Assembly: GCF_001570405.1 (NCBI RefSeq)
Contig: NZ_BBYM01000002.1
Span: 93,402 to 157,401 of the forward strand
From: Microtetraspora niveoalba
GTDB taxonomy: Bacteria; Actinomycetota; Actinomycetes; Streptosporangiales; Streptosporangiaceae
Length of the DNA: 64,000 nucleotides
Direction: 5' to 3'
This document shows, in pieces, positions 59,906-62,309 of this stretch. Position 1 is the first letter of the stretch. Every line of letters begins with the position of its first letter. A model generated the notes under the pieces. That model was not told the origin of the DNA. It saw only the letters and a list, made by a program, of their open reading frames with translations, and ran no database searches. Position numbers and translations under genes: made by a program.

Positions 59906-59936
59906 TTGACCGTCGCGTGGCGGCGAGTGCTAACCT
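59906..59936 (+). promoter_or_regulatory. promoter of the leader peptide/PheRS-like unit
   Basis: TTGACC (59906-59911) and TAACCT (59931-59936), 19-nt spacer. The leader ATG begins 7 nt after the -10, so the transcript is leaderless for the leader peptide. Confidence 0.5.
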
Positions 59937-59943
59937 CCCCGCC

Positions 59944-60021
59944 ATGTCGAGAGTGCAGCGATTTATCCGCCCCCGGCCGGCGATGCCGGCCGCCGGGGCG
60001 AATCGGCGTGCTCTGACCTGA
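59944..60021 (+). CDS. 25-aa leader peptide upstream of the PheRS-like gene
   Basis: ATG at 59944 opens MSRVQRFIRPRPAMPAAGAN followed by RRALT and a TGA at 60019-60021, ending 77 nt before the PheRS-like start. It is too short to be an enzyme and begins right after a promoter. It contains a single Phe codon, the rare TTT, at position 7. Its own coding sequence forms an 8-bp hairpin (59974-59992) that competes with a downstream pairing. All of this fits a translated attenuator leader that senses charging of a tRNA or ribosome stalling. The role is inferred from layout alone. Confidence 0.55.
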   Translation: MSRVQRFIRPRPAMPAAGANRRALT

Positions 60022-60088
60022 CGCGGCCGCATCGGTTCCCGGCGGCGGGCCGGCCGGGGGGCAGCTCCCCTGTCCACCGCGAACCGAT
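59971..60088 (+). promoter_or_regulatory. candidate attenuator with mutually exclusive RNA stems
   Basis: Segment 1 (59971-59981, CCCCGGCCGGC) can pair with segment 2 just after it (GCCGGCCG, 59985-59992), or perfectly over 11 bp with segment 3 (GCCGGCCGGGG, 60049-60059). Segment 3 can instead fold on GCAGCTCCCC (60061-60070). An outer stem ATCGGTTC/GAACCGAT (60031-60038 with 60081-60088) encloses this region and ends 10 nt before the start codon. Confidence 0.5.
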
Positions 60089-60098
60089 CGGAACCGCC

Positions 60099-61295
60099 AT
60101 GTCCTCTGCCTTGTCCTCTGCCGTCTCCCGTCCGAACCGCACCCGGCCCCGGCCGTACGTGCTCGACGCGAGCGAACTCGCGGGCGCGTTGACCACCCGG
60201 GATCTCAGCGATCCGGGCCAGGGGCCGCACGCCATCCAGCTCGTCGTCGACACCCTCGTCCGGGCTCTCCACAGCCGCTGGCACAACCAGGTCCGGCTGG
60301 TCCGGGCTCATCCCTTGGTGCCCGTCGAGGACAACTACGAGCGGCTGGGCTACCCGCCGGACGCCGTCACCCGGGACGCCCGCTACACCCGCTACGCCAG
60401 CGAGACCTGCATGTTGCGCAGCCATACCAGCGCCATGATCCCGCCCGTGCTGCGCGAGCTGGCAGGTGAGATCGCGGGCGAGGGCGGCTACGGCTGGCGC
60501 GACGTCCTGCTCGCCTGTCCCGGCCTGGTCTACCGGCGTGACGTCGTCGACCGGATCCACACCGGCACCCCGCACCAACTCGACCTGTGGCGCGTCGCCA
60601 CGGGCCGGCGACTGGGCACCGGCGATCTCGACGAGATGGTCGCCGCCGTCGTGGGCTCGACCCTCCCCGGGGCGCCGTACCGGACCGTCGCGGCGTCGCA
60701 CCCGTACACCGAGGACGGGCGCCAGGTGGACGTCCGGGTCGGCGAGGAGTGGATCGAGATCGGCGAGTGCGGGCTCGCCGCCCCTCACGTCCTGGCCGGG
60801 GCCGGGTTGGATCCCGCCGTCAGCGGACTCGCCATGGGGCTCGGGCTGGACCGGCTGCTGATGCTGCGGAAACAGATCCCCGACATCCGCCTGCTGACGG
60901 CGCCCGACTCCCGCATCGCCGGGCAGATGCTCGACCTCGCCCCCTACCGGGCGGTGTCCAAGCACCCGCCGATCTCCCGCGACCTGTCGGTCGCCGTCCA
61001 CGCCGAAACCGACGCCGAAACCCTGGGCGGCGCGGTGCGCGACGCCCTCGGCCCCGGCACCGACGCGATCGAGGAGATCCGCGTCGTCTCCGAGACACCG
61101 GTCGAGGACCTGCCACCGGCCGCGATCAGCCGCATCGGCGCACTGCCCGGGCAGAAGAACGTGCTGCTGCGCATCGTCCTGCGCGACCCCGCCCGCACCC
61201 TGTCCGACGAGGAGGCGAACACGATACGCGACCGGGTCTACGCGGCCGTGCACCAGGGGACCACGCACCAATGGGCCGGCCCCCGGCCGGCCTGA
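60099..61295 (+). CDS. single-chain phenylalanyl-tRNA-synthetase-like protein (PheS core + FDX-ACB)
   Basis: A 398-aa class II synthetase-like protein. Residues about 30-300 carry the PheS catalytic core: HPLVPVEDNYERLGYP, motif 2 region SETCMLRSHTSAMIPPVLRE, LACPGLVYRRDVVDRIHTGT, EWIEIGECGLAAPHVL and motif 3 GLGLDRLLMLRKQIPDIRLL. Residues about 303-398 form an FDX-ACB tRNA-anticodon-binding domain (YRAVSKHPPISRDLSVAV, LPGQKNVLLRIVLRDPARTL). In normal bacteria PheS and PheT are separate and FDX-ACB ends PheT; this fusion lacks the PheT editing domains and recalls mitochondrial PheRS. It may be a second, drug-resistant PheRS or an enzyme activating another amino acid. A leader peptide and structured leader precede it. 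Confidence 0.85.
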   Translation: MSSALSSAVSRPNRTRPRPYVLDASELAGALTTRDLSDPGQGPHAIQLVVDTLVRALHSRWHNQVRLVRAHPLVPVEDNYERLGYPPDAVTRDARYTRYASETCMLRSHTSAMIPPVLRELAGEIAGEGGYGWRDVLLACPGLVYRRDVVDRIHTGTPHQLDLWRVATGRRLGTGDLDEMVAAVVGSTLPGAPYRTVAASHPYTEDGRQVDVRVGEEWIEIGECGLAAPHVLAGAGLDPAVSGLAMGLGLDRLLMLRKQIPDIRLLTAPDSRIAGQMLDLAPYRAVSKHPPISRDLSVAVHAETDAETLGGAVRDALGPGTDAIEEIRVVSETPVEDLPPAAISRIGALPGQKNVLLRIVLRDPARTLSDEEANTIRDRVYAAVHQGTTHQWAGPRPA

Positions 61296-61331
61296 CCTGC
61301 GGCGAGCCTCCGGATGAGGAGGCGGAAACAC

Positions 61332-61366
61332 GAAGCCCCTGGGAGGAGGATCCTCTCAGGGGCTTC
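61332..61366 (+). terminator. terminator after the PheRS-like gene
   Basis: GAAGCCCCTG (61332-61341) and CAGGGGCTTC (61357-61366) form a perfect 10-bp stem with an internal GAGGATCCTC fold in the loop. Confidence 0.8.
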
Positions 61367-61562: not shown

Positions 61563-62309
61563 TCACAGCCGGGATCTCAGCACGTCGATCTCACAGCCCG
61601 GCGCGAACGGGTCGAAGCCGTGCTCGACCAGCCAGCGAACCACCAGCAGGCTTCGCAACGACCACCACGCGCGGATCACGTCGAGGTCGACGTCGGTGCC
61701 ATAGCCGGCGACGACATCGCCGAGGTGCTTCTCGTGTCCGAGCGTCAAGATGGCGAGGTCGAACAGGGCGTCACCTTGGCCCGCCTCGGACCAGTCGATG
61801 ATGCCCGTGACCTCGTCGCCGTCGACGAACACGTGAGCGATCTGCAGGTCGCCGTGCGTGAACGCCGGACTCCAGGGCCGGAGCGCGGCCTCGGCGACCT
61901 GGCGGTTGCGGGTGACCAGGTCGGCGGGCAGGACGCCGTTCGTCACGAGCCACTCGCACTCGCCGTCGAGTTCCGCCGCCAACTCGTCGAGGCCCCGGCC
62001 GGCCCGGCCGGGCCTGGGCGGCAACGGCGCGTCGTGCAACCTCCGGATGGCGGCGCCCGCCGCGGCCCACGCCGCCGGGGACGCGGTCGACGGCTCGCCG
62101 AGGCGGCCGAGCGCCGTCCCCGGTACTGCGGCGATCGCGAGCACCGGCGGCTTGTGCCACAGGACCTTCGGGGTCGGGACCGGCGCCAGGGCCATCGCCT
62201 CGACCTCGACGTCGATGCGCGCCTGATCGGCGTCCACCTTCAGGAACACGTCGCCGACGCGCAGGGTCGCGCGCTCGGAATGGGCGACGACCACTTTGAC
62301 CTCGTCCAT
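61563..62309 (-). CDS. aminoglycoside-phosphotransferase-family kinase
   Basis: A 248-aa protein of the APH/choline-kinase fold. The catalytic Brenner motif is FTHGDLQIAHVFV (HGD with a Gln/His variation after it), and the metal-binding Asp is in VTGIIDWSEAGQGDALFDLA. The N-lobe is short (ATLRVGDVFLKVDAD, with the ATP-binding Lys). Such genes phosphorylate antibiotics, sugars or other small alcohols; the substrate cannot be predicted. The ATG at 62309 stands alone. It may confer resistance, but most actinomycete members do not. Confidence 0.87.
   Translation of the reverse strand: MDEVKVVVAHSERATLRVGDVFLKVDADQARIDVEVEAMALAPVPTPKVLWHKPPVLAIAAVPGTALGRLGEPSTASPAAWAAAGAAIRRLHDAPLPPRPGRAGRGLDELAAELDGECEWLVTNGVLPADLVTRNRQVAEAALRPWSPAFTHGDLQIAHVFVDGDEVTGIIDWSEAGQGDALFDLAILTLGHEKHLGDVVAGYGTDVDLDVIRAWWSLRSLLVVRWLVEHGFDPFAPGCEIDVLRSRL

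Follow-up and report, generated by a model that had tools for sequence, protein, structure and literature searches.

The 64,000-nucleotide stretch of Microtetraspora niveoalba DNA analysed here (the window; positions 93,402 to 157,401 of the forward strand of contig NZ_BBYM01000002.1) carries a gene, srmL, for a single-chain protein resembling phenylalanyl-tRNA synthetase (PheRS), preceded by a short leader open reading frame (ORF). Comparison of this locus with its relatives indicates that SrmL is probably a backup PheRS of the mitochondrial single-chain type that is induced by stress on the supply of phenylalanyl-tRNA (Phe-tRNA). A preliminary description of the locus had already suggested attenuation by Phe-tRNA and a backup PheRS, and the comparative evidence fits that suggestion well, in that a single TTT codon is locked in distance to an RNA stem, a long-range helix co-varies and the product is free of phenylalanine (Phe). 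The absence of Phe is the strongest clue, and was missed in the preliminary description. That SrmL would charge tRNA-Phe with Phe, that stalling would induce it, the sign of the switch and a PheRS inhibitor as the trigger are what we infer from these sequences. The features concerned are the following.

59906..59936, + strand: probable promoter, read from the sequence (TTGACC at 59906-59911, a spacer of 19 nucleotides, TAACCT at 59931-59936)
59944..60021, + strand: leader-peptide ORF, probably leaderless, 25 codons, MSRVQRFIRPRPAMPAAGANRRALT (translation)
59959..59964, + strand: CGA-TTT, the proposed stall site, a rare Arg codon followed by the sole, rare Phe codon (codon conservation)
59970..59981, + strand: segment 1, CCCCCGGCCGGC, 5 nucleotides past TTT, with segment 2 or segment 3 as partner (spacing and pairing tests)
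59985..59998, + strand: segment 2, which can pair locally with segment 1 (less well supported than segment 3)
60049..60060, + strand: segment 3, GCCGGCCGGGGG, the distal 12-base-pair partner of segment 1 (covariation and shuffle test)
60066..60070, + strand: segment 4, C-rich, a possible partner of the G-run in segment 3 (single-sequence folds; weakly supported)
60099..61295, + strand: srmL, Phe-free single-chain PheRS-like protein of 398 residues with 0 Phe (NF051887, Pfam, Phe count and structure model)

Absence of phenylalanine from SrmL

Scanning GTDB genomes gave 194 relatives of SrmL. The best 80 of these, one copy on a viral contig (L114) and the window itself make up a main set of 82 sequences, which is biased towards close kin (18 are from Kribbella) because the best 80 of the 194 were taken. 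A second set consists of 32 loci from genomes sampled over the class and the order, 16 of which are shared with the main set. The SrmL protein is without PHENYLALANINE: the Phe count is zero in 70 of the 82 sequences, one in 10, two in L081 and six in L114. A Phe-free SrmL occurs in 33 of 40 genus-level labels, and in 30 of the 40 every member is Phe-free. In the second set 29 of 32 SrmL proteins are Phe-free (13 of 16 among the new loci), and of two plasmid-borne copies the one from Glutamicibacter has no Phe and the one from Azotobacter has one. Neighbouring ORFs contain on average 2.56% Phe, about 10 in a protein of the length of SrmL, and only one of 262 neighbouring ORFs of 330-450 residues is Phe-free. 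A core of 240 residues is without Phe in 76 of 81 SrmL sequences (a set that includes L114) and contains 8-20 Phe in canonical or second copies of PheS (23 of 25 loci scored); the canonical PheS of the same genome has 18 Phe in 412 residues. Positions at which PheRS has a conserved Phe are occupied in SrmL by Tyr, His, Leu or Met, so that FPF becomes HPY and GFAFG becomes GLAMG, while the NFD of PheRS is NYD in SrmL and NYE in the window copy. Among other residues, Trp is not depleted, Tyr is somewhat enriched and Lys is moderately low.

The six-Phe sequence (L114:4995-6149) is an SrmL homologue of about 42% identity on an IMG/VR contig of 516,805 bases that is classed as viral. No leader was found upstream of it, and it is possibly a phage PheRS and an outgroup of the Phe-free family.

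Family, domains and catalytic motifs of SrmL

The window protein belongs to the NCBIfam family NF051887, "PheS-related mystery ligase SrmL", with a score of 516.9 bits against a cut-off of 300 over profile positions 2-349 of 349; the one-line description of this family names it and gives no function. The protein scores below the cut-off of the equivalog model for mitochondrial single-chain PheRS, TIGR00469 (116.5 against 258.35 bits). The view that the gene joins a class II core of the PheS type to an FDX-ACB domain, without the PheT part, was borne out both by the Pfam domains and by the predicted structure model, which gives a fold match across model residues 16-390. Compared with the mitochondrial single-chain PheRS (TIGR00469, human FARS2), to which it stands at 25% identity, SrmL is bacterial, occurs alongside normal PheS and PheT, and is Phe-free. 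Residues R146, R147, D148, H159, D162, G247, G249 and R252 are invariant in 42 SrmL sequences and Q160 is present in at least 90% of them; we take these to be the class II motif 2 and 3 residues and the HQ motif. With the class II motif residues kept, the proposal did not fall for want of ATP-site residues, as it had been said that it might. The anticodon-binding domain is also present.

As the preliminary description had advised, ordinary pheS and pheT were looked for, and both were found elsewhere in the same genome. This genome also contains a third PheS-like gene (L002; G000:C4:307016-307729 and flanks), encoding 517 residues in which a PheS core is fused to a PheT-like class II core (PF01409, PF17759). 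Its product contains 15 Phe and lies under the pheS cut-off (198.7 against 237.45).

The substrate pocket is altered. FPF is the Phe-binding motif, a role known after Thermus PheRS, and the HPY aligned with it in SrmL is invariant in the 42 sequences; in addition the HQxE of PheRS is HQLD, with Asp in place of Glu. Both changes could point to another substrate, and it may be asked whether SrmL answers a shortage of Phe-tRNA by charging tRNA-Phe with a different amino acid, for example Tyr, or by making some other aminoacyl product, which the name "mystery ligase" would also allow. We regard this as unlikely, since the avoidance of all Phe would by itself force FPF to become HPY, and likewise GFAFG to become GLAMG and NFD to become NYD or NYE, and since the catalytic motifs and the anticodon-binding domain are retained and the neighbouring genes are not widely shared. 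Nothing was found in support of the earlier idea of a synthetase for a non-standard amino acid or for amide-bond formation, for which the changed pocket leaves room.

The leader peptide and its phenylalanine codon

The preliminary description reported a leader ORF with one TTT codon upstream of the PheRS-like gene, and this was confirmed for the window (25 codons, with TTT at 59962-59964 as the one Phe codon). It also asked whether the peptide is conserved upstream of orthologues. When the upstream regions were searched for the features that it had listed, a leader ORF that carries a regulatory Phe codon was scored in 79 of the 82 sequences. The others are L114, which has no leader, L058, for which the wrong upstream ORF was picked and a proper leader with TTT is visible on inspection, and L080, in which there is no in-frame start. 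The regulatory Phe codon is TTT in 78 of the 79 leaders and TTC in one; all leaders have TTT in 38 of 39 genus-level labels, and the second set has a TTT leader in 31 of 32 loci. Of the 79 leader peptides, 73 have one Phe, 4 have two and 2 have three or four. Among the Phe codons of mechanically picked ORFs nearby 4.3% are TTT, and among their Arg codons 7.2% are CGA. CGA lies directly 5' of the regulatory Phe codon in 67 of the 79 leaders, and a slow CGA-TTT pair may sharpen a stall. In most Kribbella leader peptides (e.g. L040) two or three consecutive Cys occur late in the peptide.

The position of the codon relative to the RNA is fixed. Segment 1 opens with a C-run, which begins exactly 5 nucleotides past the Phe codon in 77 of 79 leaders, and the number of this codon in the peptide ranges from 5 to 11 (with the start codons as chosen). 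If a ribosome stalled with TTT in its A site, its footprint would extend over the first part of segment 1, and the fixed spacing therefore fits what a stall sensor would need. The leader stop codon lies 2-24 nucleotides behind segment 2 in 74 of 79, so that a ribosome at the stop codon would sit at or near segment 2.

The leader might instead sense a ribosome-targeting antibiotic through its nascent chain (conserved R-R-F-x-x-P) and not Phe-tRNA, with SrmL having a role in that response. Arg precedes the leader Phe in 69 of 79 sequences and Pro follows three codons past it in 75 of 79, and erm(X), tet(65) and a chloramphenicol exporter gene are found close to plasmid copies or remnants of srmL. 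The Pro codon, however, belongs to the C-run that opens segment 1, and 67 of the 69 Arg codons are CGA, so that the conservation looks to be at the level of nucleotides or codons. The linkage to resistance plasmids may reflect mobility alone, and a PheRS-like, Phe-free enzyme would be left unexplained. We regard antibiotic sensing by the peptide as highly improbable.

The promoter noted in the preliminary description found mixed support. TAACCT ends 7 nucleotides 5' of the leader ATG, with TTGACC another 19 nucleotides upstream, and a scan of the window region with the sigma-70 consensus gave no promoter at the leader. On the other side, 69 of 79 leaders have a TANNNT at most 20 nucleotides from their start, and 63 have it at 6-7 nucleotides, compared with 1% of random 20-mers. 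A TANNNT so near the start suggests that the peptide is probably translated from a leaderless mRNA.

RNA helices of the leader

In the window, 59970-59981 is complementary to 60049-60060 over 12 base pairs or, alternatively, to 59985-59998. Such mutually exclusive pairings had been proposed, with 11 base pairs for the long-range one; that helix holds up in comparison and the local one less well. Of 79 leaders, 66 pair segment 1 with segment 3 better than their dinucleotide shuffles do at p<=0.05; for the window p=0.010. For an alignment of the helix, 4 leaders were set aside for length and 8 as near-copies, leaving 67, of which 60 were aligned. In these 60, 74.2% of cells pair, compared with 65.5% in shuffles, and the covariation score is 0.252 as against 0.133+-0.012 in shuffles, none of 500 of which reaches 0.252; when the segments are slid past one another the score is at most 0.130. 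A score above that of shuffles can also arise from kinship alone, without structure. At 10 of the 12 pairs both sides change, the helix co-varies across genera, and compensation can be seen in CCCCTGGTCC with GGACCAGGGG, CCCCGTGCCC with GGGCACGGGG and CCCCCGAGCCC with GGGCTCGGGGG.

A covariance model of the leader (R1) has a single match at E <= 1 in its own genome, upstream of srmL (150 of 14,736 candidates scored), and matches at least 7 of 100 relatives. At one locus (L155, G743:C166) a leader was found with only a C-terminal fragment of srmL beside it. A T-box or other known RNA was considered and set aside, as the window has no Rfam match at gathering scores.

Transcriptional or translational read-out

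The Azotobacter plasmid copy (L117) and the Melainabacteria copy (L074) have, by eye, a GC stem that ends in segment 3 and is followed by ATTTTCTTTT or TTTTTGTTTG, as in transcription attenuation. T is enriched 3' of segment 3 more generally, at 57% at +1 and 46% at +3 over a background of 15%, the value at +1 being inflated by the exclusion of G through the definition of the segment end. It is possible, if on balance somewhat doubtful, that the read-out is instead at translation initiation, through access to the srmL start; this would be compatible with a backup PheRS. In its favour, most GC-rich leaders have no clear U-tract 3' of segment 3, the bases past the first three positions being 42-62% C, and in several examples a single-sequence fold has segment 3 within a hairpin directly upstream of the gene. 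The stems with U-tracts in L117 and L074 and the enrichment of T speak for transcription. In the window no + strand terminator with a U-tract was found between leader and gene by a terminator scan of the region, and the element is therefore described as attenuator-like and is not classed as a classical transcription attenuator.

Proposed mechanism

We propose that the leader normally holds srmL off. When Phe-tRNA is plentiful, the ribosome would reach the leader stop near segment 2, segments 1 and 3 would pair, and expression would be off, whether by termination or by a block to translation. When Phe-tRNA is scarce, through inhibition of PheRS or lack of Phe, the ribosome on the leaderless peptide would stall with TTT in its A site. 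Because segment 1 begins 5 nucleotides downstream of TTT, the leading edge of the stalled ribosome would mask its first bases; segment 3 could not then be paired with it, and srmL would be turned on. SrmL, having no Phe, could be translated to its end without charged tRNA-Phe, and, being insensitive to the agent that had stopped the normal PheRS, would refill the pool of Phe-tRNA and so shut itself off.

The lack of Phe might alternatively guard against poisoning by an analogue that the normal PheRS charges in place of Phe, and not against a lack of Phe-tRNA. A Phe-free protein would be equally immune to misincorporation of an analogue, and ochratoxin A, a known PheRS-directed compound, is itself a Phe analogue according to the available text of PMC7916415. 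With a charged analogue, however, no stall at TTT is to be expected and the conserved leader would have no signal, and this explanation seems very unlikely.

Besides the altered pocket and the missing terminator in the window, several observations weigh against induction of a backup PheRS through this leader. Eleven of the 81 SrmL proteins other than L114 hold one or two Phe; in 5 of the 10 proteins with a single Phe it lies in the first 11 residues, where the choice of start is uncertain. L080 has no recognisable leader start, yet the leader RNA model finds it at 35.5 bits. Classical attenuators use more than one regulatory codon, and here there is a single Phe codon. About a quarter of cells in the segment 1-3 helix are unpaired and 41 of the 60 leaders lack its last pair, while its further pair types are unexceptional, 68 of 500 shuffles reaching the count. 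Covariation of the local pairing between segments 1 and 2 is weaker (0.171) and rises to 0.215 when slid by +3. Neither a hairpin of segments 3 and 4 (6 of 79 at p<=0.05) nor a local terminator arm 5' of segment 3 (2 of 79 at p<=0.05) was above shuffles. RNAalifold gave no consensus structure for the 60-leader alignment, for which reason the named helices were counted instead; the long gapped loop may defeat its energy model. Lastly, the model R1 matches only 8 of its 16 sources, the misses including L117 and L007, both of which have leaders. It is insensitive, and its counts for the own genome and for relatives are therefore lower bounds, so that leaders elsewhere are possible.

Relation to known systems

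The best explanation is that the srmL switch would work, by analogy, like that of the attenuated auxiliary tryptophanyl-tRNA synthetase (TrpRS) of Streptomyces. Kitabatake, in 2002, reportedly described an auxiliary, indolmycin-resistant TrpRS in Streptomyces coelicolor, and work of Vecchione and Sello from 2010 is said, by its title, to concern an antibiotic-resistant TrpRS gene under ribosome-mediated attenuation. On these accounts the S. coelicolor auxiliary TrpRS is, like SrmL, a second synthetase governed by a leader peptide in which the cognate codon occurs; it is a class I enzyme for Trp, whereas SrmL is of class II and would act on Phe. Second TrpRS copies (L167-L169, L173 and L174), each preceded by a short ORF that ends close to Trp-Trp, contain 0-1 Trp as against 1-3 in main copies; the numbers are small, L173 was read over 180 residues only, and L166 was read in a wrong frame. 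This contrast is much smaller than that for Phe in SrmL. Avoidance of the cognate residue may be general in attenuated backup synthetases; its extension to TrpRS was judged weak because Trp is rare in all copies.

A survey of attenuation in Actinobacteria found, as far as its available text goes, phenylalanine operons without conserved upstream RNA structures (Seliverstov et al., 2005; PMC1262725). The classical attenuators that it describes in that text resemble the srmL leader in having a leader ORF with regulatory codons and alternative helices (PMC1262725), whereas the srmL leader has a single rare codon locked to a stem. Biosynthetic enzymes have been found to be statistically lowered in their own amino acid (the cognate bias of Alves and Savageau, as given in the available text of PMC4209129), and the reasoning that an enzyme for emergencies should do without the amino acid that is in short supply appears, to judge from that text, to be common to both cases (PMC4209129). 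The cognate bias is a statistical lowering in biosynthetic enzymes, whereas SrmL is a synthetase-like protein fully without the residue; the term 'tRNA synthetase' is absent from the main text of that article in its available form (PMC4209129). Among the papers listed in searches of the open-access literature, which mostly leaves subscription papers outside its coverage, nothing was found on SrmL, its leader, the absence of Phe or the mechanism.

Distribution, neighbourhood and mobility

SrmL is sparsely distributed. Of 394 genomes of the class, 26 have it at E <= 1e-70, as do 11 of 345 genomes of the order. At 1e-80 it was found in 2 of 296 genomes of the phylum (the window's own and one that is apparently frame-broken), and above the family cut-off in 5 of 60 close and distant relatives. 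The taxa concerned are Actinomycetota, Myxococcota and one Melainabacteria bin. Eighteen plasmid records match srmL, of which two, from Azotobacter and Glutamicibacter, contain most of the gene. The Azotobacter plasmid copy groups with the Melainabacteria copy in a tree (support 100/99), and the Glutamicibacter plasmid copy adjoins a chloramphenicol exporter gene. On two Corynebacterium plasmids (L115 and L116) a partial srmL lies beside erm(X) and tet(65). There are hints, suggestive only, that srmL once moved along with resistance genes.

The ORFs around srmL at 81 loci were clustered into families, and each family was counted over the genus-level labels. Apart from srmL itself and ORFs overlapping it, the widest family is an ABC-type ATPase (identified by eye) at 11 of 81 loci and in 9 of 41 labels, and other families are mostly confined to Kribbella. 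A biosynthetic or operon partner was discarded as a candidate, no neighbour family exceeding these counts. So was a dedicated tRNA, as ARAGORN, run on the flanks of 32 of the 83 loci, detected no tRNA-Phe gene in any of them; the tRNAs that it found there are for Trp (2), Cys and Ala, together with one tmRNA. The lack of a widespread neighbour family, the plasmid copies and the scattered taxa fit a stand-alone, moving gene.

We would give an even chance to a more far-reaching proposal, that SrmL is a mobile and self-contained PheRS bypass, in which the leader sensor would be the only Phe codon of the transcript and the protein would have been freed of Phe by evolution so that it could be made at zero Phe-tRNA. 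Its spread through Actinomycetota, Myxococcota, a Melainabacteria bin and plasmids would then point to undiscovered natural inhibitors of PheRS. If this is true, a function would be provided for an NCBI 'mystery' family, together with an example of an enzyme purged of one amino acid and makeable when that amino acid is absent, and with a compact genetic sensor of Phe-tRNA. There would also be reason to seek natural PheRS-directed antibiotics, and cognate-free design in other backup synthetases.

Downstream of the gene one further feature was read from the sequence.

61332..61366, + strand: hairpin 3' of srmL (GAAGCCCCTG...CAGGGGCTTC), possible transcript end

No + strand U-run follows this hairpin, and the terminator scan gives only a minus-strand site here. 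The next gene after srmL, on the minus strand at 61563-62309 of the window, encodes a phosphotransferase of the APH family (PF01636, 73.1 bits), a relative of which lies close to srmL in one other of the 81 loci.

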